From assembly GCA_963920765.1 (NCBI GenBank), contig OY987249.1:3071230-3135229 (forward strand): a stretch of DNA of 64,000 nucleotides. Direction: 5' to 3'. The stretch comes from Ulota crispa (lineage: Eukaryota; Streptophyta; Bryopsida; Orthotrichales; Orthotrichaceae). Under the pieces are notes generated by a model that was not told where the DNA came from, did no database searches, and was given only the letters and a program-made list of their open reading frames with translations. Below, in pieces: positions 176-52,130 of this stretch. How positions within the stretch are numbered: position 1 is the first letter of the stretch; every line of letters starts with the position of its first letter. Both the position numbers and the translations under genes were made by a program.

Positions 176-3100
176 CTGATTTGAACGATGGTGGCGCCAC
201 CTTCGATGGCCCCCCGAACAGCTTCAGATGTGGAACGACCCCATGTCTTGTTCATCGAAGAGTCCGTGACTGCGTAGAGAAGGAGAGACTCCGGGCGAAA
301 CTTGCTCTGGTTGGAGTTCTTCTCCCAGTCTGAGAGCTTATGTAAGTGATTCACAGGACCTTGCTTGCCTTCCCCAATTTTCAATGTTGCACTTTCTTCG
401 AGTACCTCGCTTAAGTAGCGCTTTGCAGCCTACATGGACGACATCCACGAAGTGTTATAACTACACCGTTTATCCTGGAGAAAATTTCATGGATACCCCT
501 GAAGTTTGCAATATTTACATAGATGCCCCTGCTTTTTCAGAAATTACACAAATACCCTTGGACCAAAATTTCAGGCATTTGTTTTGTTGCGCATGCCACT
601 TCCCTTCTCCCTTTGTGCGCACGTTGCTTCTATTTTGTTTCATTACATTCCCTATTTCAACATTGGTCATGAAGAAAGTACAAGCACAACAAATAAATTC
701 TTTAAAATTTTGGTCCAACGGTATTTGTGTAATTTCTGAAAAAACGGAGGTATTTACGAAAATATTGCAAACTTCAGGGGTATCCATGAAATTTTCCCTT
801 TATTCTATTTAGTGCACACTTCGGAGTAATTATAATTCAAGCACAGACCACTTGTTGTTTGAGTGACTATTCAGTCAAGGGCATTTCGATGGTGGTTTCA
901 AGATCCACACCTTAACTCAAAACAAAAGTTAATTCTACTCCATGGCATGGATGACACAAAGTAGAATGAACGATAGTATCATTGAAGTAGCTGTTTTCAG
1001 AAGTACATTAAAATGGAGTCTACTGTTACGTCATGCCTGGAATGCTTAAGGAGGTATAATCACAAAAGGAGACAGGAAAAAAACTGTACCAAGACAGCCG
1101 AGAGCATGGGTTGGCCTTTGGCAAGCTCGGCCGCTATTGACGACGCCAAAGTACAACCAGTGCCATGTGTGTTGCGAGTCTCCACTCGAGACCCCTGTAG
1201 CTCATGCCAATCAACTCCTGCAAACACAAATGAAAGGTCAAAAGCCTGAGTACCTTTGAACTGAGTAGTACTTGTCAGTAAGAGCTTGTTTCACTTTGTT
1301 TACAAACTCCCACTTCAGAAATGGCAATATTTCATAGAATCAACATGCAGAGAATCGAACCCTCGGAAAGTCGGATCTGTCTTAGAAAAACTATTTAGGA
1401 TACAATTGGCAGGGCCTATATTAAAAACTGGCGTTACAATTGGCCAGAGTTTCTGAGAGGAAGGTATTGTCAGTGAGCTACAAAAAGTGGCCAAATACTC
1501 AAAGGTTGAAGTACGGAGGATTTTACGAAAAGGGAGTAGTACCATCATAAAGAATGTCAACTAGAGTGCTTGTGCCAGGCAAGTGTCCACCTTTCACGAG
1601 GACATACCTGCGAGATCCAGCAGAACCATAAACATTAAATCCACCACAACTGAAAATGCTGCATAATACCAGGAAACAAGGTTTAGTACAAAGTTTCGAA
1701 AACTGATGTGCTTTGTAAAAGAGAGAGAGTGGGAGATGTACTAACCGAGGACCGAGTTGGTGGATAGCTTCAGCTGCTTCACGCATTTCGGTGACAGTTG
1801 TCACAGGATCGCCTCCAATGATTGCAGACGCTTCTGGTAAGTTGGGTGTCACCAGATCTGCCATAGGGAATAAATCATCTCTGCACATAAGAGCACAGTA
1901 AATCACTTCACGGAAACTAAAATAACATCCCAGTAAACGGCATGCACCCTTGAGCTCAAAACAAACCTAGAACACCAATGTATTAAAAGACTGGTTCACT
2001 TTTGAAGAAATTTGTTTTACTATCAAACGTGCAATAATCAAATTAGCTCACAACCAAACAAGCTGACTAAGGACTGAATGTAAAGAAAAAAGTAATTCTA
2101 CTGTGAGTCACACCCACGTTAGCAAACACAATGAGCTCCAGCTTTTGCATAAAAAGAATATAAATTGCTTTTTTCAGCTCACTCATTCCAAAGGTATTCA
2201 GACAGCTCTTCAAAATATTATGTAAGCACAACAAGGAATGTAACATATTTGTACTTAAAGTCATTCTTGTCCACGTGGATGGTCAAGAATTCAGTTGAGT
2301 GCCAGGTTTTAGGTCTTAGGTTGTAGGGTTTAGGGTTTAAGGCTTTTCAGTTGGATGCTGCCGAAGCATAGCAATGCCGCAGAGTTAAACATACCGAAGG
2401 GCATCAAGTATCGCTGGGCCAGCGAGCTCATCTCCGCTTGTCGAGACTAACACTGGATCCACTACTAGTCCTGCGCCACAACCAGCATTCTCATTAACCC
2501 TTAAACGTCATTTTCTGAACACTTGGTCCATTTCCTAAATCTTTTCGAATTCATCAACTTCTGAGAATGGGGCTGAATGTCTAGAAAACGTCTAGAAAAT
2601 GCCTTGCAAGCGTTTGGACGTTTAAAGGTTAAGAAGAAGCCTTGATTAGCGTTGTAACCAAAAGCTCCACAACGACGAACTGTGAGAAGAAAGACTGGCA
2701 ATTACCTTTGACTGGATATGTTCGCAACACATCACAAAGACTCTGAATTATTTCAACGGACGGCAACATGCCTGTCTTCACCTGCCATGCAAATGTTCAG
2801 AAATGCCATTCAGTGTCAAGGAATTTAGAGCAAAAAGGGGTTATCAATACCAAATCATCCCCGACGAGGATTTAGGATTTAGAGTTTAGGGTTTAGAAAC
2901 CGCAAGTCACTTACCACATCAGCGCCAATGTCCATCAAAACAGACTTCACTTGCAACTCCACAAACACTGCTGGCACCGCATGGATTCCCTGCATTGCAT
3001 AGGATCGGTTAACGTTTTCAAGAGAAGGTCGGTTTAGGGTTTAGGGTTTAGGGTTTTCCAACAACAAGCATCACTAAAGTTAGGGCTTAGGGTTTAAGAT

Positions 3101-3540
3101 ACACGTACTTGAACTCCGACGGTGTTTTGCGCAGTGAGGGCCGTAATGGCAGTGGTGCAGTAAACCCCAAGCGCTCCACACGCTTTCATGTCAGCTTGAA
3201 TTCCAGCTCCTGCTCCAGAATCCGAGCCTGCCACAGCAAGCACCCTCGGCACTCGTCGACGTTCTTCGCCCCCCATATCTGCTCGTGCTCCGCTCTTGAG
3301 TCTCCGCCAATTCGAAAGAACCGGCGTAGTAGTACTCACCCCAACCCTAGAAAATCTGGGGAGCCGCGTAGTTCCCAATCCGTGCCTAGGTGTGTCAAGC
3401 GTTGTAGCGAACTGTAACAAACATGACAACGATTTTCAGATGAGTTCAAGAATTGTTAAGGTAATGCAATTGTGAAGCAATACGGGCATGTGCATTACCT
3501 GAAGGTGAGACGTCGCCCCTTGCAGCAGCTGCGCTGCCAT
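176..3540 (-). CDS. TH1: TH1-type thiamine biosynthesis bifunctional enzyme (HMP-P kinase / thiamine-phosphate synthase), 3' end missing
   Basis: Nine exons join in frame on the minus strand: 3499-3540, 3109-3411, 2915-2989, 2706-2781, 2395-2470, 1746-1880, 1543-1607, 1090-1217 and 176-429, all with GT-AG introns, giving about 384 residues before the window edge. The start is the ATG at 3538-3540; the longer frame of the second exon has no ATG and is preceded by an acceptor at 3412-3413. Residues 1-60 are rich in Ser/Thr/Arg and acid-poor, like a plastid transit peptide. The kinase (ThiD) domain follows, with GSDSGAGAG at residues 76-84 and NTHGTGC at 273-279, which phosphorylates hydroxymethylpyrimidine (phosphate). 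From about residue 349 the thiamine-phosphate synthase (ThiE) domain begins ([18 protein letters not shown]); the last visible piece is [10 protein letters not shown]. The remaining ThiE exons lie left of base 176. Residues match the order and spacing of plant TH1 as I remember it. Introns 4 and 8 carry MITEs; introns 2, 3 and 5 carry telomere-like runs. Confidence 0.92.
477..798. repeat. MITE with termini like GGGAAAATTTCATGGATACC, in intron 8 of the thiamine gene
   Basis: The left end (around 481-560) and the right end (around 720-797) are inverted copies: AAAATTTCATGGATACCCCT against its reverse complement, continuing through a TTTGCAATATTTAC block. A second copy of the same family lies at 49257-49572 with its interior inverted. 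No clear target duplication was found. The short ORFs across this element are by-products of the palindrome. Confidence 0.75.
2306..2345. repeat. Degenerate telomere-like (TTTAGGG) run in intron 5 of the thiamine gene
   Basis: The stretch reads as TTAGG/TTTAGGG-type units with variants, including GGGTTTAGGGTTTAAGG. It is one of several such runs in this gene. Confidence 0.6.
2498..2628. mobile_element. Short TTAA-flanked MITE (131 bp) in intron 4 of the thiamine gene
   Basis: TTAA at 2494-2497 and 2629-2632 flank an element that starts CCCTTAAACGTC and ends GACGTTTAAAGG, an imperfect inverted pair. Its form (TTAA target, termini starting CCC) is the same as the larger elements of the intergenic region. 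It lies wholly within an intron. Confidence 0.7.
2869..2898. repeat. Degenerate telomere-like run in intron 3 of the thiamine gene
   Basis: Four imperfect TTTAGGG-like units sit in tandem, 16 to 46 bp from the splice donor at 2913-2914 of the preceding exon (minus strand). Confidence 0.55.
3029..3095. repeat. Telomere-like (TTTAGGG) tract in intron 2 of the thiamine gene
   Basis: Three perfect TTTAGGG units at 3033-3053 are followed by a second, degenerate cluster at 3079-3095, within a 119-bp intron. Confidence 0.75.
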
Positions 3541-5806
3541 AGCCGAGTGTACTGAACCTTATGCCACTCAAAGTCCACAATCTCTTAGCCCTTGAACGAC
3601 CACACCCATTTTCACAGAATCCACTGAAAACAGGGGCTGTAAGTTTAGATTAGGAATTGACTCAAGTATGGACCCATTTTCAATAATCCAATTGTACAAA
3701 TGGGAAGTACACCTTGTTTTTTGTAAAGTACTAAAATTTCAGCTAGATCTATCGTTGTAAGTGAAATATTATAATGATTGAGTGAGTCGTATGTGGAAAA
3801 TCTCTTGTGTTTCATTCTTGTTTAGTTTTGAATGTTAACCTTTCATGCAAGCTTTGATTGAGAAGAGCCTTACATTTCTAAAAAGCAAGATTTCTCACCT
3901 TTCCAACAAGACTAGTTTTTAGCAATCACAAGGTGTAGCTAAGTGGATAAAAAGGGTCAAAAAACCCACTTTCTTTGCTACCCTAAAACGGTTCTACAAG
4001 AAATTTGGTAATTATTCTAGAAAATCCAATTGGTGAAAACAATCAAGAATTGGCCTTAAATGTAGGATGACATATTTTAAAGCCAAAATGACAACAAAAT
4101 TTTAGTAGATCTTCAAATACTACAATAATACTACTACCGTATATGAAAACAATACAAGCGTATTTCTTAGGCAATTTGAATTTTTTTAGAATTGTTCAAT
4201 TGAAATTTGACATTCTTCTTGCATACTTGATGTATTGTATTGTTGCTTTGATCCATCTTTGACAAAAATTGGATACATATTTTGAAGCCATGTTGTATAA
4301 ACACCATTATTTATCAACTCACATACCCAATTGCATTGTTATTTTTTTAGATGGATGCAAAATTCTTGTGGTCACATGCATACTTCAAGACCAAATTCCA
4401 AATTATTGAGCGATTTCAACCTACAGGCCAAAAACCACTCCCAACGACCAAAATATGGTTGCATGGTCCTTAGCCCCTAACTGTCTAAAAGGATGAAAAT
4501 TGTCCTTTCAATGCCAAAAACACACCCTGAGGGTGGAAAAAGATTTTTTTTCCAAATCTTTTTTCTTGAAAGTGATCAAAGAGATGTGCCACATCACTGA
4601 ATGCCAAAAATAGCTGCTTTCAATGCCTCCATATTTTTTAAAACACCAATTTGTAAAAAAATGTACAAGGTCCTTGCTGCCTTTTTTGTGAGGGCAAGAT
4701 ACACTATTGACTTTTTCTTCTCTCTTGTACACATACCACAGACTGATCACTGCCCATGAACAATGCACACTCTCTTGAATCCGAGCCACAGGTTTAGGGT
4801 CAGTCCTTTAAGGGTTAAAGGGTTAAACCCCACGATTTCTTAAACCCAGCTCCACCTCATGGGTCACCATAAAAAATAATGCCGGAATTCCAACGTCAAC
4901 CACCTGGCCAGCTTTGATTCTAGTTCTCTTTCGACTTTTGCATGCTCGAATTGCTCAAATTGTCTTCTAGAATCAGCATGACTTGCTGCCGAGAATTCTT
5001 AGGAACTTGTCTGTGGATGCTCTGTATCATGGGAATCCAGTGTGGAATGTTTTTACAGATTTCGAGACACAACTCAAATTGTCTGGAGGTAGCCATTGGG
5101 ATTACATAAAAAGAAGAAAGTTACAGAAATCTTTTTTAGGGGCCGATTCACACTATGCATCCTTCCCAGTGGATGAATTTTATCTAACCATCAAAGGTTA
5201 TTCATCCTTCAGTCTAGAGCCGAAATGGATGAAACGGAGAGACCGAGCTTAGCACCCTGACAAGGCACGTGGCACTCCCGAGGATTTCTTGTCACCTCCC
5301 AATCACCAGAACTTTGCTCCACCTTTAGATCTTTTGCTTAATTTGCTTGCATCGCTTCCGAAGCTGGTTACGTGGGTCCCTGAGATCTGAAGCTGTCGGA
5401 GTAAACACTTCTTTCTTTTGAGAATCGTAAGGATTGGTTTTTCACTAACGATGCGATGATCACGTAGATTGATTCGATCGCGATTACCGAGCGTTGGGCG
5501 TACTCTTCTACTTCCGTTACGCTAACAATTTCGTTTCACAGCCGAATAAATAGCAGTGGATTATCAAAGTGTTTGAATTTCGAAGTTGCGTACCATCCAG
5601 CTTCAAAATTAGGGTTTCCATTATAGAGCAAGGAAAGTAGATAAGCTTCGCAGATTGGCGCACAAGTCGAGATGGTGCGTGATGAGGATCATTTTGGCGG
5701 AGCTCATAGACGATCTGATTTTGGAGGTTTTAGAAGTTTTGGGGGAAGAGGTAGTTCTGTTTGGGTTTAGGGTTTACTCTGTTTTTTTACTTGTAGGGAA
5801 GTAGCG
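3541..5806. promoter_or_regulatory. Divergent intergenic region between TH1 and ATG16
   Basis: The two start codons face away from each other over about 2.27 kb, so both promoters must lie here. The stretch is AT-rich up to about 4790 and GC-richer near ATG16. AAACCCTAA-type telo-boxes occur at about 4790, 5609 and 5763-5774. GGGGCCGATTCACACTA with a TTA before it at 5136-5155 looks like a solo end of the GGTTCACACTA transposon family. A CCTTTAAGGG-TTAA sequence near 4810-4825 resembles a right end of the TTAA family without a clear partner. An ATG at 5672 opens a 32-codon upstream frame ending at 5770. The 270-bp ORF at 4983-5252 has no recognisable content. Confidence 0.6.
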
Positions 5807-8484: not shown

Positions 8485-8665
8485 CTTCTAAAGGATGTTG
8501 CCTACCAAAAGTGTCAAAAATTTCCCAAAAAACCCTAAGTAACCTGTAGTATGTTTGTGATTTGGCCTAAAATTTACAACTCCAATGGGATTCATGTGCT
8601 ACCCAAGTATCCCATTTGTATTCAACACAAGAGAGCATATACAATGCAGCAACATTCTTTAGGGG
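8485..8665. mobile_element. TTAA-flanked element, short subfamily (181 bp)
   Basis: TTAA at 8481-8484 and 8666-8669. The ends are CTTCTAAAGGATGTTGCC and GCAACATTCTTTAGGGG, matching in inverted form the subfamily members at 13101-13341 and 18133-18779 (shared AAGGATGTTG ends and an interior containing TTTGGGTAGCAC on one strand). Confidence 0.7.
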
Positions 8666-10221: not shown

Positions 10222-10223
<2 letters not shown>

Positions 10224-13100: not shown

Positions 13101-13341
13101 CCCTTGAAGGATGTTGTTGTATTGTGTAAACTCTCATGCATGTGTTGTATAAAGATGGGGTATTTGGGTAGCACTTGAAATCCATTTTAGCTCTAAATTT
13201 TGATCCAAGTCATAAATGTACTACCAATCAACTAGGATTTTTTGGGAAATTTTTGACATTTGTTATAAAACCATTTCTTCAATACTAAATGGTCCTTGTA
13301 TGAATACAGCCAACACTTTTAGAGGGCAACATCCTTAGGGG
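13101..13341. mobile_element. TTAA-flanked element, short subfamily (241 bp)
   Basis: TTAA at 13097-13100 precedes CCCTTGAAGGATGTTG. The right end is GGCAACATCCTTAGGGG, after which TTAA is degraded to TTGC. The interior (GGTATTTGGGTAGCAC, CTACCAATCAA) matches the elements at 18133-18779 and, in reverse, 8485-8665. Confidence 0.7.
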
Positions 13342-13371: not shown

Positions 13372-14283
13372 CCCCTAAAGGACCAAGCAAAGTTTTCATC
13401 AAAAACTCTTCAAAACTGCCATTTTTAGAGCATCAACCAAATTTGAAAAAAAAAACATTTTTATGCATATGTGACCATAGATCTTGTAGAAAAATTGTTT
13501 TAGAAGGTGTGGAAAAAATCTCAGAGTTTTCCACCTTGTGGATTGGAAGTTAGAATGGTTTGAATATTCAAAGATGTCTTGTAAAAAACTGGGCAGCTAC
13601 CCTTGAGAAGGTGAAATTCCTAAGGAAAAAAGGCCATGAGGGTGGTGCTTCTCTAAATTCCTTATTCCACCTAAGTAAAGTACATGTTAAAAAAATTCAA
13701 ATCATTTGGAGTTGTATAAAATATGGAAAAACATTAGTAAGCAAAAAGAAGTAGAGAATGATTCAAAACACAAAATTGTTAAGAATTTAATTATGGAAAT
13801 GAAAAATGCCAATCCCAATGGTCATAATGTTGTCATAAACAATGTTCATTCTTTGGTTTTGATTTTTTTCAAAATGTTGAAAATTGAGTAAAATAAAGGA
13901 CTTCAAAGTTTATTTTAGAGTAGAGAATCCATAACTACCCACAAACAAAAAACCCTCATAACTTTCATCTTGTTGATCCAAACGGAATGATTCAAAGCTT
14001 CCTACATTCACATAAATCTCCTAAACCAATTTAAACTTTTTGTTTTTGAAAAAATTATTTTTAAAAAATCTGCCTAGGCTGCCCGCCGAACGTAAAAAGC
14101 AACATGTTAGGCTATAACTTTTTACTCATAATTCCAAATGTCATGAAATTTAGTGCATATGAAAGAAAAACCTCGTCCCCACATTTTGTTAAAATTTCAG
14201 CCTAAAATACAAAAAGCTCCAATCACAGGTACCTGCCGGAAATTGCTCTGTTTCTAAAAAAAGGGGGTCTGGTCCTTTAGGGG
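13372..14283. mobile_element. TTAA-flanked CCCCTAAAGGACC element (912 bp)
   Basis: TTAA at 13368-13371 and 14284-14287 flank CCCCTAAAGGACCAAGC and GGTCCTTTAGGGG. The interior shares long blocks (AGTAGAGAATGA, TTAAGAATTTAATTA, AAATAAAGGACTT) with the element at 42175-43099. The 60-codon frames inside have no recognised content and no transposase was seen. Confidence 0.85.
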
Positions 14284-17289: not shown

Positions 17290-17617
17290 TATGGTGGAAA
17301 GCAGCCTATAGTGTAACGTCACTTGAACAAAATCCTTTGCATTTTTGATTTGCCCTTCTACTTGTGAACGTAATAATGGAAATTGCTGAGTGATGGCACA
17401 CTAAGTAACATCACTTGTGCTTGCAAAAAGATAATGTGGCAACACTTTCTTCAAGCAACATTTACACAAGCTATGGGCCTCATGCACAGCCAAACTCAAA
17501 TTTATGCCAATAGTTACTTAAGCTCAACCCTTGTTCTTAGTGACTTAAACGTGAAAATGCCCTTGCGTAAGGCCCTTACCTTGCACATTCATGCTCACAT
17601 GGGTGTGCTCCATGTAA

Positions 17618-17987
17618 GGGGCGGTTCACACTACCTCGCACATCTCGTCTTTGCAAGTCTCACCTCAACATGAGGTCCAACTTTGTTGGATTCTTAAGGG
17701 CAAAAAGGAGTACTAAAGAAAACCAAGATAGTTTATGCAAAAGTATTAGTGGAAACTTGGTTGAAAGTTGGGTCTAGAAAAATGGATGATCCAAACTTGG
17801 AGTAAAGTTGCACCTTTTTTGGAGCCACAACTTACAAAATGTGTTGCTCTCTAACCAAAATGCATTGAATTGGGATGTGGGACTTATGACATAGTGTGAA
17901 GTGTCAAATCTCAACTTTTGGCTTTACATAAATTAAATTCTCAAAATATGGTGGAGCATATGATGTGGGACATTGTGCAAACTGTCC
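17618..17987. mobile_element. GGGGCGGTTCACACTA element, Harbinger/Tourist-like (370 bp)
   Basis: TAA (17615-17617) precedes GGGGCGGTTCACACTA; the right end is TTGTGCAAACTGTCC followed by TTT rather than TAA. The interior is shared with 43957-44980 (inverted), 48255-48559 and 48722-49083: blocks such as GGTCCAACTTTGTTGGATTC and GTCAAATCTCAACTTTTGGC. It holds a single TTAA near 17693 at the place where the 44-kb copy carries a TTAA element. Confidence 0.75.
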
Positions 17988-18132: not shown

Positions 18133-18779
18133 CCCCTAAAAAATATTGTTGTATTTTACTCCCTCTGTCCTTTAGAAAATGTCCAAATCACACATATTTC
18201 TTGTACCACTAAAAATTTCCCTTTTGCTGATTTCATATGCTGAGAAAGCGTTTGCCATGTGAATGATCTCATGGAGCAAGTTAAAAGATCAGAGAGCATT
18301 CCTCTCCTAGCAAGCTTGGCCTTGCCCATATGAGGTACCATTGTTGCTACTAATCTTTAAACCATCAATAATGGGGAGCTGGCAAAATGCACAAATATGG
18401 TACTTTTTGCATGAAATTTGGGTGCCCAAATGGCAACATCAAAACTAGAGATTTTACATACATTTGGTAAATGGTATATTGATTCTAGAATGCATGTGTC
18501 ACTAGCACAAAGATTAAAAACACAATTCATCCTTTGCAAGGAAATTTTTTGGACATTTTAGAGAAACATAAGAAGTATATATTTTCTTGTGTTGTATAAG
18601 AATAGAGTATTTGGGTAGCACATAAATCCATTAAAATTGTAAATTTTAAGCCCAATTACAAACATACTACCAATCAAATAGTATTTTTGAAATTTTTTTA
18701 GCATTTTTCATAAAAACCATTTCTTCAAGTACTAAATGGTCCTACAACCAACACTATTGGTGGGCAACATCCTTTACGG
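18133..18779. mobile_element. TTAA-flanked element, short subfamily, with a nested Stowaway remnant
   Basis: TTAA at 18129-18132 and 18780-18783. The ends are CCCCTAAAAAATATTG and CAACATCCTTTACGG. Outside the insert at about 18159-18575 its sequence follows the 13101-13341 member, so the uninterrupted element would be about 230 bp. Confidence 0.7.
18159..18575. mobile_element. Degenerate Stowaway-like MITE nested in a TTAA element
   Basis: It starts with TA then CTCCCTCTGTCCTTTAGAAA, close to the Stowaway consensus. The right end shows GGACATTTTAGAGAAACATA, a decayed inverted partner. The right boundary is inferred from where homology to the host element resumes. Confidence 0.6.
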
Positions 18780-20395: not shown

Positions 20396-21234
20396 CCTCT
20401 AAAGGCCTAAGTGTCCATTCAATAGTCACTTGAGAACTTGGGTAGGGTCATATGGAGTTAATTTTTATTGGATGTTCTCAAGACTGTTACACAAGGTGTA
20501 AATATGTATCTCCCAAGTGGAAATATAATTCTTTCCTCAATCAGATCTATGCTTAGTTCAAAAGTTATGCTACCCAAAAGAATTTGGGCAGCTTGGAGAA
20601 TCTTATGCCAAAACTCTCATCAACTTTTGAAATTTGACCATCTTGCAGTTTCAAGAAAAGATGTTCTTCTCTAACTTGAGGGCCTATTATCTTTCAGTTT
20701 ATAAATCCAAAGCTCTTGAATTTTTTTTAAAACATTCCAGATGTTTGCCTCTAACTTTTCACCATTCAAATTTCAAATAAAAGATGTCTTCAATGCACAA
20801 GAAATCATGAAAGAATGACTAATGTATTACCGATTCATTTAACCTCCTTATATTGCAGGGCAATTTAGAGTAAGCTAGATTCATAATTTGCTCTTGAAAC
20901 TTTTCATGAGTGTACCTAACAAGATTTAGATGTTAGTGGAAACAAAACTTTAATTCATGCCAATCAAAAATTGGACTCCAAAGAAGCTCAAAGTTTGCTG
21001 ACCCATCTAGGTAGGGACAAAAAAACCTTTTTATAAATTCCAAATGCTATAATCTTTCAATCCGTGTGGTCAAATGGGCTGAAATTTTTTGCACTCAATA
21101 ATAAAATATTTTACTAATTTTTTTGTACGGTTGAAGTTTCAAAAGTAGTTTTCAAATTAAAATTCACATCAACATATTGAAAAAACACAAATTTTGGCAA
21201 TTTCTGGTTAAAACAACCCTTGAGCCTTTAGAGG
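20396..21234. mobile_element. TTAA-flanked CCTCTAAAGGCC element (839 bp)
   Basis: TTAA at 20392-20395 and 21235-21238 flank CCTCTAAAGGCC and GAGCCTTTAGAGG. The interior shares sequence with 22721-23638 (AAACCTCC/TTAACCTCC blocks, the TTGGGCAGCTTGGA segment). No transposase was seen. Confidence 0.82.
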
Positions 21235-22720: not shown

Positions 22721-23638
22721 CCCCTAAATCACAAAAGTTTGTTTGGCAGTGGGTTGAAAGTTTGGATAGGTTCCTATGAAGTCAAATTTTGGTGGATGTT
22801 TCTGAAATTTGAAAACAAGGTGCACACAATGAATACCTTTGTGTGGGAAAAAAAAAACAACTCTGATTGGATGCTCAATGCTGCCCAAAAGTGTTTGGGC
22901 AGTTTGGACATTTTTGAAGAATCTTATGCTAAAACTTTCATCAACTTTCAAAACGTGGCATGTATGTAACTAAAAATATATGGTATATAATTGTCAAAAA
23001 AAAATTGGGCTCTCAAATCATATTCTAAGAGGATTCCAATTTTGTTAACTATGTCCGGGGAGTTTTGAGAAAAAGTAATTTCTTCTAACTTCAAGCCCTA
23101 CTATCTTGCATTCCATAAATTTAAAGTTCTTGAAACTTTTTTCACATATTCCAAATGTTTGCCTAAAACTTTTTGCTATTCCAATTTCAAATAATAGACT
23201 TTCTCATTGCATAATAAAATCATGTAAAATTGGTTAGTGTAATGCCAATTCACTTAACCTCCTTGCATTACATGATGATTTAGACTAAACTAGATTCTAT
23301 ATTTGCTTATGAATTTTTTCATAAGTGAACCTAATATCAAATTTTTGTGAATAGTCAAAATATTATTTTTGTAAAGCAAAAAATGTACTTTAGGAGGTCT
23401 CAAAGTTTGCTGTTTTTGTTTTGCAAGAATGAAAAAAAGTTGTTTTTCTCACTTCAAATGTTATAACCTTATTATCTATGCGGTCAAATATGCTAAAGTT
23501 TTCTATTCACGTTGCCTTACTTGTATATTACACTTTTGTACAATTGAAACTCCAAAAAAGATTTTATTTTTAATCTTAAATAAATCATCAAAAAATGGCA
23601 GTTTTGGTTTTATTTTTCTCCGCTTCGGGCTTTAGGGG
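22721..23638. mobile_element. TTAA-flanked CCCCTAAA element (918 bp)
   Basis: TTAA at 22717-22720 and 23639-23642 flank CCCCTAAATCAC and CGGGCTTTAGGGG. Overlapping 75-codon frames on both strands at 22724-22969 are mirror shadows with no recognisable content. Confidence 0.82.
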
Positions 23639-24909: not shown

Positions 24910-25458
24910 TTAATCCCTAAAGGCTCATTGTCCCCTCAAGGGACAAATGGGATTTTGGGCAGGTACCTCTGGTTAAACTACTTTGCGTGATTTTCTAAAA
25001 CTTTTATTGAAAATGGAGAATTATAAGATTTGCGTGGGAATCTAATTTTTTCTTTATTTTGACAATTATTGAAGAAATTATGCATGAATTACTGAAAAGC
25101 AAGGGAGAATCGGGCAGCCAAAAAAATTACAACTTTTTAAAATAAATTTTTGAAATTGGTTCTTTAAATTTTTATGTATTTGGAAAGCTTTGAATCATTC
25201 AATTCTGATAGATGAGATGAAAGTTATGAGAAGTTTTAGTTTGCGGGTAGGTATGGGACTCCCAAACCTCCATTCTTTTTTCCTCTTGTAAAACTTGTTG
25301 CTTTATTTTTTTGAGCTCTTTGCATTTTTTTTTTAAACTTTTTTTTTTTGCAAGTTGTAGTAGACTAAGATTCCTTGGTTTTCACCATTTGGATCAAAGC
25401 AATTTGGGTTTTTGAATTTTACATAAATCCTCTAATTTTGCCTAGAGTATATGCAAAT

Positions 25459-25703
25459 TGTTATGGACATAGAAATAGAAAGATAATTGATAAGAACTAG
25501 AAATGAACTTGAATTCAAAAATGAAGAAACAAATATCAAAGGAGGTGAGCAATAGCTCTAAGAAATGTGTTGTTGAGTCTAATAACACTTCAGCCTTTAC
25601 CTTTATATATACTATGATTTAAAGTGAAAGAACTCTAAAGTAAAAGATATTCTAAAGTCAAAAGTAAAAGAAAACGGAATGTTCCAAAGTAATGTCTCTA
25701 ACA
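25459..25703 (-). repeat. LTR (3' LTR of the minus-strand gypsy element)
   Basis: About 245 bp, TG...CA ends, paired with the LTR at 30483-30728. CAAAT lies immediately before it. Confidence 0.92.
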
Positions 25704-28700: not shown

Positions 28701-30482
28701 TTTAGTCATTTTTATAAACATTTTTGCTCCAATAAACATGAATTTTTTCACTTGCGGTTTGCTAGTTTATTTGCTAACAAGTTTCTCAACATGGTTTTTA
28801 ACAGGCTATATATTAAGTTTATTGATTGGATGACTTTTGAGAAAAGTTATCTTTTGTAATTTCCAGTCTATTGATGAATTGTACTTTTTTAACCACGAAA
28901 AACTAAGAATAATAGGATTTGACGAGGTTTTAATGACATTGAAGATAATTTGGCTATTATAGCCTTCAAATGTCACCTCCAAAGGCATTGTTTCGTGTTT
29001 GATACTGCCAGAAGATAAATGTTGTCTATCTATTATTTCTACATTGACAAGCTGAGATTTTTGAACTAAAAGGAATTTGTAACTTTTAACAAATTTTTCA
29101 TCTAAAAAACAAGCAGATGCCCATGAATCTAATAGAGCAGTGGTTTCAAGTTTCTGAAGATATACAGATAAAGGAATAATAAAACAAGAGGTAGGTTGAG
29201 CGGAAAGAGAGGAACCTAAATGTTGTTGTAAAATTATATTATCCAGCCGTACGGTTCTTATTATAGCTAGGTATTTTTGTTTTCTTAGACGATGGCAGCT
29301 CTGGTCTTAACAATAGGTAGAGTTGGCTTCTTTGAATAGTTGGTAACTCTATGGCCTTCATTGCCATAATACAAGCATAGTCCTTTCTCTATGCAACGTT
29401 TTTTTACTTCCATAGTGAAATACTTGACACATATTGCGTTGATTTGCATGTGTGTAGTCTCCAAATGCGAAATTAAATTATTTGTTGATACAGATGAGAT
29501 TAGACAAGTTGTTTGTTTTTTCAGTGGAATCTGATCTTGACAGCATTGGAAAATTTGATTGTTGTATTTAATCGCTTGACGAATTGTCTTGTTTAATGTT
29601 TGGGGATCAGAAAGTGATAAAAGTAAATCTTTCACAGAATCCTTCAATCTCCAATAGAATTGGTTCATAAGGGCTGCTTCATCCTAACTAATATCACACG
29701 CAAGTTGTCAAAAGTCCAAAGCGTAAGCCGATGCAAAGCGTGTCCTTTGTTTTATAGACCAAATTTTTGTAATTGCCCAACAAACTTTATCATGTTCACC
29801 AAACGCTTCCACAAAGGCCTAAAGAAAAATGTCAAAGTTGCTCAATATAGGTGAGCCTTTCTCGAATAAATGAGCAATCCATGATAAAGCTTGTCATGTA
29901 AGTAATGTTCCAACCAATTTAACTTGTGATTCTTGTATTGGATAGCGTCTCAATTGTAAGGCAGTTATCAATCAAATCTGATTGATAAACCCTCAAAATT
30001 TGAAGCGCGTGCCATCAAATTTCACAAGAAGACTAACACAAAATTTCTTTTGTTGTAGTAGTGGTAATATGTCTTATCAAACCTCAAGTAGAGCTCCTCT
30101 CTCCGAATTGGCGGAAGGTTGACCTTGTTGAAAACCACTAATAACTCCTTTAATTATTCTGGTTCAATTTGACAACGTAGTGATAGCATTGAAGATGACT
30201 TCTAACTTAGACTCTATAGCTTTGCGCATGACAAAATCCTGAGGTTCAACCATACTCGGAGACGAAAAATAACAGAGTTTATGAAATAAAATAAAATATT
30301 GGTTTAGAGGGGGTAAACGGCAACATCTAAACCTTCAAAACTTCAAAGAGAGGGAATGTCTGCAACTCTCACAAGAAGAACAAAACACAAATATTGCAAT
30401 AAATGAGATATCAGATTAGAGGAGGTAAACCGCAATCTCTAACAAAGGTCCTGATACTCAAGTGAAGTAAGACTTGATAAAC

Positions 30483-30728
30483 TGTCACGGACATAGAAAT
30501 AAAAAGATAACTGATAAGAACTAGAAATGAATTTGGATTTAAAGATGAAGAAACAAATATCAAAGGAGGTGAGCAATGGCTCCAAAAAATGTGTTGTCGA
30601 GTCTGAATAACACTTCAGCCTTGACCTCTATATATATTTTGATCTAAAATGAAAAAAATCTAAAATAAAAGATATTCTAAAGTCAAAAGTAAAAGAAAAC
30701 AGAACGTTCCAAAGTAATGTCCCTAACA
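30483..30728 (-). repeat. LTR (5' LTR of the minus-strand gypsy element)
   Basis: About 246 bp, TG...CA ends, roughly 90% identical by eye to the partner LTR. CAAAT lies immediately after it. Confidence 0.92.
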
Positions 30729-31132
30729 CAAATTTCATGACATTACGGCATTGCAGGATTTTACAAAATATAATCCACACCTCCGTTTCTTTTGAAAATT
30801 CTCACACATTTACCTAACCTGGTCTTCTAAATGGAAAAAATAAACCTCAACTTTGCGTAGAGCAATTATTTTGATATAGGAGCCGTCAAAGGCTTCTAAA
30901 GTTTTTGGGCAGCACGGAAAAAAACTTTTGTTTTCACTTCAAATGTCAATATCTCACTCCTCTACAACTAAAATGAGCTGATTTTTTTCCTACAAGTACC
31001 TCCTATAGTTTAGGTCGAGATCTTCCGGTTTGATATCTATAAAAAAAAATTACATTTCTCCTCACTCCTCCAAAAGTGACAATTTTAAGCGATTTTCACC
31101 AAAAAAAATGGGCTTGGGCCTTCAGGGATTAA

Positions 31133-32233: not shown

Positions 32234-33764
32234 CCCCTAAAGGACTATTGTCACTTTGGAGGACAAATGGGATTTTGGGCATGTACGTATAGCTAAACTA
32301 TTTTGCGTGATTTTTTGAAACCTTTAATTGAAGGTGAGGAATTCAAAGCTTTACGTGGGAATGTAATTTTCTCTTCATTCCAACATTTATTGAAGAAGTT
32401 AAAAATGAACAATTGAAAAACAGGGGAGAATCAGGCAACCAAAAACTTCTTTAAAAATTTCATTTTTTCAAATAAAAATCTGAAATAGGTTCTTTAGACT
32501 TATGTAGACGTGGGGAGCTTTGAATCATTCAATTCTGAGAGATGAGATGAAAGTCATGAGAAGTTTTAGTTTGCAGGTAGGTGTGGTTTTGCCTCGGGGA
32601 GATCACTCCCTCTTACATTTTGCATACACCTGCAATAATGACCTGTTTAAATGGGGGCTATTTACCTTGTTAAAAAGATTATAAGACATGGTATTTTTTA
32701 AAATAAAGGTCAATGTTAGTGATTAAGTGCACCGTATTGGAACTAACAATTTTTCTAGGGGCTCATTTTAAGCTAACGTATATTACTTACAATCCTTTAT
32801 TTTCCTTATACCCCATTTAATCCTTGTAAATCATTCTATTTGTTATATGCATTTATCTTCCTAAGTTTATTACTATCTTGAAAATGTCTAGTACTATGAG
32901 CCATTGTGCAATGACATATACACAATTTCAACATAAGAAACCAAAAGCAAAGAAGAGCTGGTAGAAGCCTTGGTAATACATATGGTAACATAAGAAACAG
33001 TAGAAGAGTACAATTTGTGTTGAAAAACACAATAAAAGATGGGAACATGTGCCCTCCATTGCTGTACATTTGTTACACAAAGTTTGCTCAAGAGTATGTA
33101 GCACATATGCAGGAGTTTTTTTTCAAACAACTTTGACTTCCATTAGCGTCCCCACAGCAATGAAGGCAAGTTTAGAAAGTAATACTAAAACCATTAAATA
33201 CCCACTCCTCCAATGATGATCAAGCAGTTAGTGACATCCATCCATGCACAAATTTTAGACAGTAAAATGTACTTTCTATTCTTGTTGAATGAACCTTAAA
33301 GCCCATGGCTCCAAACCCTATACCCTACACCCTATACCCTAAGTACTCACTAGTCACTACTAACCGTTTTTCTCTATGCTATTTTACATTTACGGCTTAC
33401 ATAATTTTATCATTTTTTGTCTACCTTATATTATATATATAATCATGTTTTTCAGTACTAGACCACCCTATATTATATGTAGTTTTTTTACAAACTTTAC
33501 CTAGAATTAATAAAATGGACCCTACATTTTATCACACGTAGTTTCTACTTTTTTTGCAAGTGACCTCCCCAAGGGTTTTGCTCAATTATTCATTTTTAAC
33601 TTCTTCAATAAATGTTGGAACGAAGAAATAATTACATTCCCTCATAGATCTTTGAATTCTTCACCTCCAATAAAAGTTTCAAAAAATCATGCAAAATAGT
33701 TTAGCCATAACTACATGCCTAAAATCCCATTTGTCCCCCAAAAGAGCCCTTGGTCCTTTAGGAG
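32234..33764. mobile_element. TTAA-flanked CCCCTAAAGGAC element, long copy (1531 bp)
   Basis: TTAA at 32230-32233 and 33765-33768. Terminal inverted arms of about 200 bp pair CCCCTAAAGGACTATTG with the right end (TTGGTCCTTTAGGAG), continuing through the AACATTTATTGAAGAAGTTA block. The middle, about 32590-33580, carries a second inverted pair (GGGGAGATCACTCCC against GTGACCTCCCC), which suggests another element inserted inside. Frames at 32836-33130 show no known domain. Confidence 0.78.
33310..33345. repeat. Short CCCTATA/CCCTACA run
   Basis: Five imperfect CCCTAYA units in tandem resemble a degenerate telomeric repeat. Confidence 0.6.
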
Positions 33765-37370: not shown

Positions 37371-38301
37371 CTCCTAAAGGACCAAGCCTTTTTTTCAGTG
37401 AAAGTTACTGAAAACTGCCACTTTTGGGGGAAAGAGTACAAAGGTAGGAAAAAAAATTATTTCTGGAAATCCAACCATAAGATCTTGCCCTAGACTATGG
37501 GAGGTACTTGTAGAAAAAAATCAGCTCATTCTAGATGTAGAGGAGTGAGATATTGACATTTAAAGTGGAAAAATATGTTTTTTTCCCTGCTGCCTGAAAT
37601 TTTCAGAAGTTTTTGATTGCCCCTAAATCAAATAAATTGCTCTACGCAAAGTTGAGGTTTATTTTTCTCATGTAGAAGACCAAGTTAGGTAAGTGTGGGA
37701 ATATTTTCAAATGAATTGGAGGTGTGAATCATACTTTTTAAAATTTTGCAATGCTGATGGCCATGAAAATTGCATATGCACTAGGCAAAATTGGAGGATT
37801 TATGTAAAATTTAGAAAAGTGAATTACTTTGATCCAAATGGTGAAAACCAAGGAATCTTAGTCTAATACAACTTGGGAAAAAAAAGAGTCAAAAAACAAA
37901 TTCACAAAGAGCTCAAAAAAGTAAAGCACTAAAGGCAAAAGGAATGGAGATATGTGAGTCATGTACCTACCCACAAACTAAAACTTTTCACTCATAAATT
38001 GAAATTGAATGATTCAAAGCTCACCACACATGTATAAATCTTAGGAACCAATTTCAATTTTTTATTTTGCAAAAATGTTATTTAAAAAAAGTTATTGGCT
38101 TCCCATTCTCCCTTGTTTTTCAAAAATTCATGCAAAACTTCTTCAATAATTGACGGAATGAAGGGAAGATTAGATGCCCACGCAGATCTTTGAATTCTCC
38201 ATCTTTTCTGAAAGTTTCAAAAGATCACGCAAAGTAGTTTAGCCATAGAGACATGCCCAAAATCCCATTTGTCCTCCAAAGGAACTATGGTCCTTTAGGG
38301 G
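37371..38301. mobile_element. CCTAAAGGACC / TTAA family element (931 bp)
   Basis: The left end CTCCTAAAGGACCAAGCC has a decayed flank (ATAG); the right end GGTCCTTTAGGGG is followed by TTAA (38302-38305). The interior closely follows 39741-40738 in inverted orientation and the two halves of 24914-31128. Confidence 0.8.
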
Positions 38302-39740: not shown

Positions 39741-40738
39741 CCCCTAAAGGACCAATTGTCCCCTCAGGGGACAAATGGATTTTGGGCATGTACCTATAGC
39801 TAATCTATCTTTTGTGATTTTTTGAAACTTTTATTGAAGGTGGGAAATTCAAAGATCTATGCTGGCATCTAATTTTTTCTTCATTCCAACATTTATTGAA
39901 GAAGTTATGCATGAATCATTGAAAAAAAGGGAGGGCGGGCAGCCAAAAAAATTTCAAAATTGCATTTTTTTAAATATAAATCTGAAATTGGTAATTTAGA
40001 TTTATACAAATGTGGGGATTTTTGAATCATTCAATTTTGATTGATGAGATGAAAGTTATGAGAAGTTTTAGCTTGTGAGTAGGTACGGGACTCCCAAACC
40101 TCCATTCTTTTTGTTCCATGTAAAATTTGTTGCTTTACATTTTTGAGTTCTTTGTGTTTTTTTTTTTTAATTTTTTAATTTTTTAATTTTTTAATTTTTT
40201 AATTTTTTTTTTAATTTTTTACTTTTATTTTGCAAGTTGTAGTAGACTAAGAGTCCTTGGTTTTCACCATTTGGATCAAAATAATTCATATTTCTGAATT
40301 TTGCATAAATTCTCCAATTTTGCCTAGTGTATATGCAAATTTCATGACCTTGAGGCATTGCAGGATTTTACAAAGTATGATTCACACCTCCAATTCATTT
40401 GAAAATTCTCCCACATTTACCTAACTTTTTCTTCTATATGGAAAAAATAAACATCAACTGTGGGTAGAGCAATTTTTTTGATTTATGAGCCATCAAAGGC
40501 TACTGAAATTTTTGGGTAGCACGGGAAAAAACTTTTTGTTTCATTTTAGATGTCAATATCTCACTCATCTACTTCTAGAATGAGCTGAAAATTTTCCCAC
40601 AAGTACCTCCCATAGTCTAGGGCTTGAAATTACAGTTCAATTTTCAAAAATGACTTTTTTCCTACCTTTCTTCTCATCCCCCCCAAAAGTGGCAGTTTTC
40701 AGTGATTTTCTAGAAAAAAGGGCTTGGTCCTTTAGGGG
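39741..40738. mobile_element. TTAA-flanked CCCCTAAAGGACC element (998 bp)
   Basis: TTAA at 39737-39740 and 40739-40742 flank CCCCTAAAGGACCAATTG and CTTGGTCCTTTAGGGG. An (AATTTTTT)n simple repeat lies at about 40160-40225. The uninterrupted TATATGCAAATTTCATGAC near 40328-40346 is the counterpart of the site where the gypsy element inserted in the sister copy. Confidence 0.87.
40160..40225. repeat. (AATTTTTT)n simple repeat
   Basis: About six TTTTTTAA units in tandem, inside the TTAA element. Confidence 0.9.
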
Positions 40739-42174: not shown

Positions 42175-43099
42175 CTAGACCCAAGCCCTTTTTTTCAGTG
42201 AAAGTCGCTGTTAACAGCCACTTTGGCGGGAATGAGTAGAAAATTAGGAAATAAAGTTTGTTTTGCAAATTCAATCGTAGGATCTTGCCTTACACTAGAA
42301 GAAGCACTTGTGAGAAAAAATCTGGTCATTCTAAATAGAGAGGAGGGAGATATTTACATCTAAAGTGCAAAAAAAAAGGGTTTTTTCCTTGTTGCTAGTA
42401 AATTTTAGAAGCCTTTGACCACTCGTACATGAAAAAAATTACTCTACACAAAGTTGAGGTTTGTTTTTTCCATGTAGAAGACCAAGTTAGGTATGTGTGG
42501 GAGAATTTTCAAATCAATTGGAACTATACAACACATGGGGAAAATTAGTAAGTAAAAAGAAGTAGAGAATGAGGCAAATCACTAAATTGTTAAGAATTTA
42601 ATTATTAAAATGAAAAATGCAAATCCCAACAATTGTAATGTTGTAATAAACAATCTCCTTCCTTAGGTTTAGTTGTTTTTCCAAAATAATGAAAATTGTG
42701 GAAAATAAAGGACTTGAACGTTTATTTTAGAATAGAGAATCCATAATTGCCCACAAACTAAAACATCTCATAACTTTCATCTCATTGATTGAAGTTGAAT
42801 GATTAAAAGCTTTCCACGTATGAAAAAATCTAAAGAACCAATTCTAGATTTCTTTTTTTAGAAAACACAAAATTTTAAGAAGTTTTTGGGTTGCTCGGAT
42901 TGCCCTCCCTCCCTCGGAGAGCAAAAATTCTTGCATAACTTCTTTGTCAAATGTCAAAATGTCAAAAAAATTAAATACCTGCATAGGTCTTGGAATTCCA
43001 CACCTTCAATAAAAATTTTAAAAAATCACAAAAACTAGATTAACTATAGGTACATGCCTGAAATCCATTTGTCCCCGAGGACAGCTGGGCCTTTACGGG
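42175..43099. mobile_element. TTAA family element with decayed left end (about 925 bp)
   Basis: The right end GGGCCTTTACGGG is followed by TTAA (43100-43103). The left end near 42175 keeps ACCCAAGCCCTTTTTTTCAG, as in sister copies, but the outermost bases are lost or changed. The interior combines blocks of the 37371 and 13372 copies. Confidence 0.7.
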
Positions 43100-43956: not shown

Positions 43957-44980
43957 GGCAGTTCACACTATGTCCCTTGTCCCACTCAAATCTGAGTATT
44001 TGGTTGGTGTAAAGTCAAAAGTTGGGATTTAACTCTTCACACTACGTCCCAAGTCCCATTTCTCAATTCATTGCATTTTGTTGAAATGGCAACACTTTTT
44101 TGGAAGTTTTGGCATTAAGAAAGGTGGGATTTCATTCAAGGGTTGACCATTTTGATAAACCCAACTTTCAACATGTTCCATCAAGATTTTTCATAAAAAT
44201 CATTACATTTTTTCAAATGCTTTTTTGCCTTTAACCCTTAAAATTTTCATCCACCCAAAATGGGTCAATCGGTTTTTAGCAATGCAGTTTATGAGCTTAG
44301 GAATGTGAAGAGTCACATGAGCTTTGACTAATTTGAAGGACAAACAAATTAGCTATATAGGGGTGTTTTCAAATTTAGAAGAAGAGTCACCATTGAATTT
44401 ACATAAATTTTCAAACCATGGGTGGTCTTGGAGATGTAGTGTTAAATTTTGGTTCTAGATTTGTGAAAGTCTTCTATTTTACTCACAATTTTGAAATTTA
44501 AGGGTGAAGTGGTCACTATTGCAAGACCATTTTCTCACTCATTTTTTACCCTAAAAATATAAGACTTGTTTCTAAGTGTGTGGAACTTGATTGCCTTGAC
44601 AATGAGCATAAGATGCCAACTTTTTAAAATGTTATGTGTCCAAAAGAGCCAATCAAAGCACAATTTCAACTACTCCAAAACATTGGTTTCCTTATAGTAC
44701 CCTTTACATTTTTGTTATAATTTTCCAATTGAACCCTTGGATTGAAACCAAACTTTGCAAAGATGATAAGGACTTGACTTTCTACAAGATCTTATGATTA
44801 CTTTGGCCAAAAAATGACTCATCATTCTTTAAGCTTCACTATTTCATAACTTACAAAATTAAGGTCCAAAACACCTTCAAAACGGTTGTAAAATTTAAGG
44901 GTTAATACCCCAATGAAGTTGGGATCTCACTTTGAGGTGAGACTTGTAAAGATGAGACGTGTGATATAGTGCAAACCAGC
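43957..44980. mobile_element. GGTTCACACTA (Harbinger-like) element carrying a nested TTAA element
   Basis: TTA (43954-43956) precedes GGCAGTTCACACTATG; the right end is ATAGTGCAAACCAGC. With the insert at 44235-44901 removed it would be about 350 bp and aligns in inverted orientation with 17618-17987 along its length, including TTGCAAAGACGAG / GTAAAGATGAGAC segments. Confidence 0.75.
44235..44901. mobile_element. TTAA-flanked element nested in a Harbinger-like MITE (667 bp)
   Basis: TTAA at 44231-44234 and 44902-44905 flank CCCTTAAAATTTTCATCC and AAATTTAAGGG. The relative at 17618-17987 has a single TTAA at the matching place (about 17693), so insertion duplicated TTAA exactly. This is the best proof in the window of the family's target. 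Confidence 0.87.
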
Positions 44981-48559: not shown

Positions 48560-48721
48560 AAATTAAGACTTCACAATTTGTCAAAATTTTGGCTAAAGCA
48601 TTTGGTTTTTTTTCAAAATCTTTGTATGGATTTCAAGGCTCCAAAAGTTTCAAAAGAAATTTGGCATTCCATATTGATTCCCAAACCCGTTGTTCTCCAC
48701 TCTAGTTGTAAGTAACTCACG

Positions 48722-49083
48722 TGCACATCACACACTATGTCTCATGTCCCATCTTTGCAATTCTCAATCAATGCTAGATCCCAATTTAGTTGGATTATTT
48801 AAGGATTAAAAGGGGTACCAAAGAAAATTATGAATATTCAATGCAAAAGTATTAATGGGACTTGAGCTCAAAGTTGAGTTTATCAAAATAGTTGACCACA
48901 AGTAGGAGTGAAGTCCCACCTTCTTTAATGCCAAAGCTTCCAAAAAGTACTACCATGTAAGCAACCAAGACTTCACACAGTGTGAAGTACCAAATCCCAA
49001 CTTTTGACTTTACACCAATTAGATTCTCTCAAATTTCACTGGGACTTGGGGGACGTAAGTAGTGTGCTCAAATTGCAACCCCT
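48722..49083. mobile_element. Harbinger-like GGTTCACAC family copy, degenerate ends
   Basis: CACACACTATGTCTCATGTC at the left and GTAGTGTGCTCAAATTGC at the right bracket the family interior (TTTAGTTGGATTATTTAAGG, AAGTATTAATGGGACTTG). The outermost bases have decayed. Confidence 0.6.
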
Positions 49084-49572: not shown

Positions 49573-49593
49573 GGCCTTGTACCATTGGCCCAA

Positions 49594-49785: not shown

Positions 49786-50272
49786 CACGTGATAGGGGGA
49801 CACACGGTTTAGGAGATCTCAATATGACAAACAAACAAACAACCTAATTTAAGGTATTGATCCATGAAATTTTCCCAAGTTGCAAATAAGCACCTAATAC
49901 AGAAATATTTTATAATTCATCAATAATTCAATAATGTTTTAATAAATATGAAAAAATTGTGTTGCAATTGATATACTTTTTTTTTGGTTTAAAAGCTCAT
50001 GAAAAAGGCAGACATGCCCTTAACCCTTAAAGATCCGTGCATTCAAAAAGTGGATGCACCTTGGTCAACCCTAATTGTAACTTTCAGAATATCAAATTTT
50101 GGTACGTAGTTCAAACTAAAAAAATGAAGCTTGACAAGTTTCCTTTCTATTTCATTTAAATTTTTTGAAAAATGTCAAAAATCAAATGAGTTATTGCCAT
50201 TGAAAGCTCCAAGTGTTAAAATCCAAATAACACAATATGGTCTCTTTTTCATTCATATTTTCTACTCTTTAA
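49786..50272. other. Intergenic; solo end of a TTAA element
   Basis: TTAA at 50020-50023 followed by CCCTTAAAGATCCGTGC looks like a left terminus, but no right end was found before the next element. Confidence 0.45.
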
Positions 50273-52126
50273 CCCCTAAAGGTCCAAGAAGCCCACTTTG
50301 GGCTTTATGAGAACTTGGGCAGGCTCTATTGACTTCATAATTTGGAAAATTTTCATGAATTTTTTTAGGATGGATGCTACTCATCATAATCTACATGTGA
50401 AGTTTATTTCATGTCATTCCAATAAGTAATGCTAAAGTTATAAGGTTTTTTCAATTTCAATGTCAAACCGGGCAGCAAAAAATATATTCTAAATTTTTTA
50501 TTTTTATTTTTATACAATTGTATTGAATGATACCTACTCAAAAAAAATTGAATCACTCAATTCCAAGTAATGAGGTAAGAGTTAAAAGGAGTTTTATTTT
50601 GCAGGCAATGAAGGTAGGAAGAGGGTAGAAAAACATACAAAGTTATCGTTTACTCTCAATTCTGAAAATTTTCAAATGAAAATGAAAATGAAAGTTACTA
50701 GTTGTCTATTAGAGCATTCTCACCATTGGGATTAACAATTTTCAAATTCTTCCAAAACTTATTAGCATATAAGTTATATCTTTCATTCATCAATACCTTT
50801 CACTTTACAATTTTTGTAAAAATGAATCCAAAGTTTTTTTTGGTTAAATTTTTTTATATATGCTTTCAACCCATTTTCCAACATATTGCAGAAATTGCAC
50901 AAGAAATACAACATACGTGTTTTTCTCTAAAAAGTTTGAAAAGCAAAATTTCATCTTCTAGAAGGATTAGAAAAGCCTACATTTTGAAGTTTGGGCACAT
51001 TGATCTTGCAATTGGTGGGGCTATTCATTCTAAAATTTTGGGACAATGTAGTTGTGCAAGCCAACTAAAGGATCCTACGGTTGGATTTGTGAAAAAGTAA
51101 GTTTCAATGAATATTTTGACCTTAGTTTGGGGACTAGTATTTTGAAGCAGTTTTGGGCCTCTAAACACAAAAGAATTTTAGGGGGTAAATGCATTTTAAA
51201 GTTAAATTACAAAATTTTGTTTCTCATCCTACCATTCATTTATGGTAAAAATTATAGCTTTTTTAAATATATATTCTAACTAACATGATTTTATTTCCAC
51301 ATTTAGCTTCAAAAAATCACAATAATTCAAAATTTCCATCAAATTAATTTGTCTTCCAATATAAAATACCAAATTTTTATAAATTAATTAAACATGAGGA
51401 TAAACTTGGTTGGATAATCAAATTTGACTTTAAAATTTTTTGTTGTGGCTATTTTGGGTTTAGAAAATAAAATAACCAATTGAAAAAAATTCACACTAAT
51501 TTTTAATGATGCTTGTACCTCTTGAAAAAAGTTCAAGTAATTTGGATTTTTTTTGCTATTTTAACTTATTTAAGTTCAGATTTTGAAAAAAAACAATAAC
51601 AATTACAAATTTTTACAAAACAAACTGAAATTTCTTGCAATGATATACTCCCTCCGTCCCAAAATGATCTTCCTATTATACAAAATGTTGTAGATTAGAC
51701 TAAAAAAGAACCATTTTTCAAACTTTGTTGGACCTATTAGTAGAGTTTGACGTCCTCCTATTGTTATGAAATTTTGAGTTCCAAATTAGTTTTCAAAGTG
51801 TGGTTTCAAAGTGCTTGAAAATTGAGTTTTTGAGGCAATTTTGAAGAGCACCGGTGGCCACTCACTTAATGGCATGGGATTGGTTAGCATGCCCATGCTT
51901 TTGGACTATGTGCAAGTGTCACTACCTCCTTTCTTCCTCCAACAAGAAGATCATTTTGGGACACTAAATAAAGGTCAACATGAAGATCATTTTGGGATGG
52001 AGGGAGTATCATTTATAGTTTCGAGCAATAAAAATATAAAATTGTTGTTTGAACACACTTTAAAAGGCAAAATTAAACTCAAAAATGAAGTTTGACCATT
52101 TCAAAATGGATCAAATCCTTTAGGGG
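50273..52126. mobile_element. TTAA-flanked CCCCTAAAGGTCC element with a nested Stowaway (1854 bp)
   Basis: TTAA at 50269-50272 and 52127-52130 flank CCCCTAAAGGTCCAAG and AAATCCTTTAGGGG. The Stowaway at 51648-52006 lies inside, leaving about 1.5 kb of its own. The 132-codon frame at 50702-51100 has no recognised domain and does not look like a transposase. Confidence 0.78.
51648..52006. mobile_element. Stowaway MITE, copy 2 (359 bp), nested
   Basis: CTCCCTCCGTCCCAAAATG and CATTTTGGGATGGAGGGAG ends, TA flanks (51646-51647, 52007-52008). Homologous to 47152-47507. It inserted after the surrounding TTAA element. Confidence 0.93.
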
Positions 52127-52130
52127 TTAA

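Follow-up and report, generated by a model that had tools for sequence, protein, structure and literature searches.

What kind of transposon left its mark on the 64,000-nucleotide stretch of Ulota crispa contig OY987249.1 analyzed here (the window), where inverted-repeat elements bounded by TTAA occur again and again? The first-pass annotation had listed 14 such elements, taken them for one large family with ends of the form CCC(C/T)TAAAGG, and seen in their TTAA target and CCC start the signature of piggyBac. We found that they fall into at least six groups joined by a shared tip and a TTAA target. On balance, we lean toward reading them as old, non-autonomous cut-and-paste elements, similar to miniature inverted-repeat transposable elements (MITEs), that a TTAA-specific transposase, probably of the piggyBac type, mobilized in trans. 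We do not file them as members of piggyBac; our view is that they most likely work as piggyBac does.

All 14 coordinate pairs (28 ends) were read with their flanks. The elements are as follows, with group numbers taken from self-comparison.

2498..2628, no strand assigned: 131-bp element, singleton group, TTAA on both sides.
8485..8665, minus strand: Group 2 MITE, related to those at 13101 and 18133, TTAA on both sides.
13101..13341, plus strand: Group 2 MITE, right TTAA degraded to TTGC (plus strand).
13372..14283, no strand assigned: 912 bp long, both ends exactly CCCCTAAAGG and flanked by TTAA.
18133..18779, plus strand: Group 2 element, enlarged relative to its relatives by an insertion of roughly 400 bp.
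20396..21234, plus strand: Group 3 element, flanked by TTAA at each end; bp 14-36 from the left tip form a palindrome.
22721..23638, plus strand: Group 3 element, TTAA on both sides.
24914..31128, plus strand: Group 1, about 0.94 kb without the long terminal repeat (LTR) retrotransposon that is nested in it and splits it, TTAA on both sides.
32234..33764, no strand assigned: derived from Group 1 as a foldback that carries the same (B) end twice.
37371..38301, minus strand: Group 1 element with an intact right TTAA and a left one that has mutated to ATAG.
39741..40738, plus strand: the best-preserved member of Group 1, each end with exact CCCCTAAAGG and TTAA.
42175..43099, minus strand: Group 1 element, left tip mutated or lost, right TTAA intact.
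44235..44901, no strand assigned: 667-bp element, singleton group, TTAA on both sides, inside another repeat.
50273..52126, no strand assigned: singleton-group element, exact CCCCTAAAGG and TTAA at both ends, with a nested Stowaway MITE at 51648-52006.

Alignment of the 28 ends gave the tip consensus CCCCTAAAGG. The ends had been described as CCC(C/T)TAAAGG, and all 14 elements do come close to CCCCTAAAGG at one or both ends, but no more than 8 of the 28 listed ends, plus one unlisted site (4805), have that exact string. The fourth base is most commonly C (20/28), and 18 of the 28 tips start with CCC. Exact TTAA adjoins 25/28 ends, which bears out the earlier claim of TTAA on both sides where the ends are preserved. 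Read from the outside inward, the three exceptions are GCAA at the right end of 13101-13341, ATAG at the left end of 37371-38301, and TTCA at the left end of 42175-43099; the other ends of these three elements have kept their TTAA. The TTAA columns carry 1.23 to 1.45 bits of information and the first 10 element bases carry 0.9 to 2.04 bits, while each of the 20 columns beyond TTAA holds at most 0.24 bits. Conservation thus ends just outside TTAA, where the annotation had reported no repetition.

The shared tip is far from what chance would produce in the window. The pattern TTAACCCCTAAAGG was matched 8, 16, and 25 times with at most 0, 1, and 2 mismatches, whereas 200 shuffles averaged 0.0, 0.04, and 0.58. 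Relaxing the limit to 3 mismatches gave 39 matches, and 100 dinucleotide shuffles averaged 7.83 (standard deviation, 2.97; maximum, 18). The core CCCCTAAAGG, allowing one mismatch, has 19 sites, and TTAA precedes 16 of them.

Some tips of the same kind stand without a convincing partner, at 4805-4818, 19505-19518, 43851-43864, and 50020-50033, which suggests deleted or rearranged copies. A partner search with five such tips gave a good match only for 19505, which agrees at 13/16 positions with the tip at 21234; with that tip already paired with 20396, we read 19505 as a leftover end of Group 3. The orphan closest to the start of the window is the following.

4805..4818, minus strand: orphan right-hand tip, one mismatch, TTAA present, no convincing partner.

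Whether TTAA is the duplicated target could be examined at 44235-44901, since this element interrupts another repeat of which two paralogous copies lack it.

17600..17960, plus strand: paralogous empty site 1, without the insertion found at 44235-44901.
48700..49060, plus strand: paralogous empty site 2 for the same insertion.

Both empty copies have a single TTAA at the matching point, and the filled copy has TTAA on both sides. This comparison represents one insertion event, and the repeat copies are about 68 to 78% identical in the matched pieces. The flanks of Group 1 elements are unrelated (in 15 pairs of end copies, they are 15 to 46% identical over 26 bp), and in self-comparison, Group 1 homology mostly begins or ends within a few bases of TTAA. 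Because the empty paralogues carry a single TTAA and the flanks are unrelated, these data support the view, already taken in the first-pass annotation, that TTAA is the duplicated target. A 3-bp duplication of the PIF/Harbinger type was rejected by reasoning only, as the symmetry of the tips holds only for a palindromic target of 2 or 4 bp.

The repeat that hosts the 44235 insertion is itself dispersed (17623-17943, 43979-44977, and 48731-49028), with a CACACTATGTCCC-like motif near its edges. Two other inverted repeats, at 15068-15356 and 39107-39262, are bounded by TTAA and have tips that do not begin with CCC. The repeat at 15068-15356 continues through its TTAA, so TTAA is not its target duplication.

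Self-comparison also addressed how many families there are. The idea of a single large family, from which one consensus might be built, was ruled out, as the cross-similarities define at least six groups that have only about 10 bp of tip in common, and no single consensus exists. Group 1 comprises the elements starting at 24914, 32234, 37371, 39741, and 42175; Group 2 those at 8485, 13101, and 18133; and Group 3 those at 20396 and 22721. The elements at 2498, 44235, and 50273 are singletons. The element at 13372-14283 has about 357 bp of its interior in common with 42175-43099 (80% identity) and weaker stretches in common with other Group 1 members. Left and right ends are unlike in the Group 1 elements except 32234, whose inverted arms of roughly 190 bp are 86% identical and enclose about 1.15 kb; about 1 kb of this cargo matched nothing else in the window. 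Six copies of the end common to Group 1, from five elements, are 70 to 85% identical in pairs, with Kimura two-parameter (K2P) distances of 0.17 to 0.40, and the copies are therefore old. Without the LTR element, the 14 elements amount to 11,716 bp, or 18.3% of the window, a figure that still counts nested Stowaway sequence.

The longest entry, 24914-31128, had been listed as one 6215-bp element. We found instead that an LTR retrotransposon has inserted into a TTAA element of about 0.94 kb, and a 6.2-kb element that might bear the transposase was thereby ruled out.

25459..30728, minus strand: nested LTR retrotransposon, separate from the TTAA element, with LTRs of about 250 bp, TG...CA termini, and a 5-bp CAAAT duplication.

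Its LTRs are 90% identical (K2P, 0.11), and its reading frames are broken. Two of the three pieces searched matched a Tf2-1-like SH3 and a retroviral-type protease model, and the third gave no match; these two matches suggest that the retrotransposon is probably of the Ty3/gypsy type.

Coding capacity was examined with Pfam. Six-frame scans were run on the elements starting at 13101, 13372, 18133, 20396, 22721, 32234, 37371, 39741, 42175, 44235, and 50273. For the element at 24914, the sequence flanking the LTR element on either side was scanned in a single frame per strand; the element at 2498 was covered only in the three minus-strand frames, and the 181-bp element at 8485 lay outside the scans. 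As a positive control, the procedure recovered gene exons in the window. No transposase domain was found in the 11 of 14 elements scanned in six frames or in the scanned part of 24914, in keeping with the earlier statement that no transposase is visible. Two matches to domains of unknown function (DUFs) fell below curated cutoffs (E values of 0.0066 and 0.033) and were taken as chance. Since the scanned elements contain no transposase domain, we read them as non-autonomous. The exact pattern TTAACCCCTAAAGGACCAAG had 0 matches in viral contigs.

The shared tips, the unrelated interiors, the TTAA duplication, and the lack of a recognizable transposase together imply mobilization in trans. In the model that we favor, an autonomous element elsewhere would supply the transposase, which would recognize the shared tip CCCCTAAAGG together with subterminal sequence, excise the element, and insert it at TTAA, leaving TTAA on both sides. 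An enzyme of the piggyBac type would bring to this a transposase domain of the Pfam type DDE_Tnp_1_7 with a DDD catalytic triad, specificity for TTAA, seamless excision that restores the TTAA, and a C-terminal zinc domain acting on a palindrome about 25 bp from the tip.

A close parallel is a set of coral elements, the CMITEs, assigned to piggyBac in PMC2872659. They resemble the present elements in being MITE-like, with a TTAA duplication and short, variable tips led by C, and their family III starts with CCCC. They differ in being about 100 bp long, whereas the elements here are mostly several hundred base pairs to about 1 kb, and in conserving the interior rather than the tip. The consensus here is CCCCTAAAGG with a fourth base that is usually C and not T, the host is land-plant-like, and no autonomous partner is known.

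Subterminal palindromes provide a second comparison. The left end of piggyBac from Trichoplusia ni is described in PMC7351741 as carrying a palindrome at bp 17-33 that is bound by the zinc domain, with the minor groove narrowed near bp 25. Near-complete palindromes centered 24 to 25.5 bp from the tip occur in 5/17 deduplicated end groups here, at a threshold chosen after inspection. Only 1 of 600 other, overlapping windows, which exclude those near the tip and around the 24- to 25.5-bp window, reaches a count of 5. The best palindrome in the first 50 bp averages 6.2 compared to 5.1 at 1000 random places, and 0/5000 resamples were as high, with related ends counted separately. A long palindrome lies at bp 12-38 of the left end of 39741-40738. 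Post hoc, these palindromes hint at a resemblance to the piggyBac binding site. Besides the TTAA target, the T. ni element resembles those here in its unlike ends and in a palindrome near the same position; it differs in that only 5/17 end groups here have such a palindrome and no transposase is seen. The tip sequence of T. ni piggyBac is also different from the tips here.

A number of points weigh against a piggyBac-type enzyme. The first is the lack of a transposase domain in the scanned elements, and the second is the post hoc palindrome threshold. Over all 17 end groups, the mean palindrome score has a local bump of 0.363 at 25 bp that is lower than the 0.390 reached at 14.5 bp. The best palindrome in the first 50 bp exceeds the control's 95th percentile in only 5/28 ends. 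One Group 1 match (33783 with 39723) extends about 15 bp beyond TTAA. Among generic inverted repeats of 12 bp with up to 2 mismatches and a palindromic 4-mer at the boundaries, AATT gives 28 pairs, and ATAT and TTAA give 16 each. The excess of AATT probably arises because AT-rich repeats pair by chance and AATT is commoner. This control does not single out TTAA, so our case depends on the shared tip rather than on TTAA-bounded inverted repeats being in excess overall. The tips themselves fit imperfectly. The piggyBac terminal motif CC[C/T]T, as given in PMC2872659, is matched by only 5/28 tips, since C predominates at the fourth base, and PMC10813416 names four motifs (CACTA, CCCTC, CCCTT, and CCCAT) that do not include CCCCT. 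The coral family starting with CCCC indicates that the strict motif is not absolute. Lastly, piggyBac is missing from the land-plant terminal inverted repeat (TIR) superfamilies in Table 1 of a 2022 review, which are Tc1-Mariner, hAT, Sola, MuDR-Foldback, PIF-Harbinger, and CACTA (PMC9033089).

These misfits bear on the alternatives. Foremost among them, though unlikely, is that the elements are non-autonomous members of some known plant superfamily other than piggyBac that is specific for TTAA, such as one of the Sola3 type. Sola3 makes TTAA duplications, and most tips here lie outside the strict piggyBac motif, which favors such a superfamily; however, Sola3 tips are not known to begin with CCC. 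Sola is listed for land plants in Table 1 of PMC9033089, but the example in that table is Sola1 and not Sola3.

We consider it improbable that the elements are of the Tc1/mariner type, with a TA duplication, tips beginning ACCCC, and a mere preference for TTAA. Since TTAA is palindromic, a TA duplication within it would give the same picture, and Stowaway MITEs, which are of the Tc1/mariner kind, do occur in the window. However, the four TTAA positions are about equally conserved (kept in 26, 27, 27, and 27 of 28 ends), with the outer T and tip-side A on a par with the inner TA, and the Stowaways of the window carry different tips.

An undescribed TTAA-specific transposase lineage peculiar to plants is, in our estimate, just as doubtful. 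In its favor, the consensus tip fits none of the published motifs compared exactly; piggyBac is absent from the plant table of PMC9033089; and the presence of at least six families within 64 kb implies a source that was once active. Against it, no protein has been seen, and a piggyBac-like anatomy already covers much of what was observed.

Kolobok is very improbable: it shares the TTAA duplication, but according to PMC9587614, its termini are 5'-RR and YY-3', and 0/28 tips here start with RR. The CC...GG tips fit piggyBac better. The plant distribution of Kolobok given in that paper names only a chlorophyte and rhodophytes.

Leaving open which lineage the enzyme belonged to, we give an even chance to the broader proposition that an undescribed TTAA-specific transposase, either of a plant piggyBac lineage or of a separate superfamily, was once present in a land plant and mobilized at least six families that today account for almost a fifth of this window, which also bears genes. 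The first-pass annotation had considered piggyBac rare or unreported in land plants. Its absence from the table of PMC9033089 agrees with this, but the label does appear elsewhere: PMC10794571 counts PiggyBac among the superfamilies of plants, with a general classification as its source; the summary of a piggyBac survey states, with no detail, that it was isolated from insects, fungi, and plants (PMC10813416); and an annotation table for C-fern lists 1230 copies labeled PiggyBac, 122 kb in total (PMC6890710). Among the 4 to 25 best literature matches of each search, judged by title, none reported a piggyBac family in a land plant, and none described such a family with its tips and transposase; subscription journals lay mostly outside this search. 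The matches listed for the string CCCCTAAAGG were unrelated by title. A moss-genome paper was discarded as a piggyBac report, as it contains only the word "piggybacking" (PMC10619864).

It is plausible that these are new elements of a known kind in an unexpected host, or something more unusual if the enzyme proves to be otherwise. Finding a piggyBac-type or other TTAA-specific transposase behind these tips would extend the known range of a transposon widely used for genome engineering, and it would prompt the question of whether plants acquired it by horizontal transfer. In the source genome, the search for the autonomous partner should be straightforward, given how well the tips and target are defined here.

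Other mobile elements share the window. Two MITEs of the Stowaway kind, which is characterized by CTCCCTCCGT tips, have CTCCCTCC tips and TA on both sides; one stands alone at 47152-47507 and the other (51648-52006) is nested in 50273-52126. Like the TTAA elements, they are inverted-repeat elements, and they differ in their TA duplication and in their CTCCCTCCGT tips, the nested copy being a separate insertion within a TTAA element. The insertion of roughly 400 bp in 18133-18779 is tentatively a degenerate Stowaway starting near 18157; its tip has 5/19 mismatches, and three further sites in the window match equally well. A palindromic repeat pair with GGGAAAATTTCATGGATACCC-like ends (480-800 and 49257-49565) is probably another MITE family, as probably are the inverted repeat copies at 9813-10223 and 16583-16990, which are 80% identical and have TAGGGAATT...AATTCCCTA ends.

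Rfam and tRNA searches of the window gave 0 matches each. Among the genes, FragX_IP/CYFIP-type exons extend across 54 to 64 kb, and a phosphomethylpyrimidine-kinase gene lies on the minus strand within 0.1 to 4.8 kb; we take these to be plant PIROGI and TH1, respectively. The 131-bp element at 2498..2628 sits between matched stretches of the kinase gene and is thus probably in one of its introns. An uninterrupted ATG16-WD40 frame of about 520 codons is found near 5771-7333. If plant ATG16 genes normally have introns, this frame may be a retrocopy or an intron-poor gene. A short interstitial array of GGTTTAG, the plant-type telomere repeat, is present at 3031-3056. Stowaway is associated with plants, and the Stowaway-type tips, the GGTTTAG array, and the Ty3-type sequence all fit a land plant.

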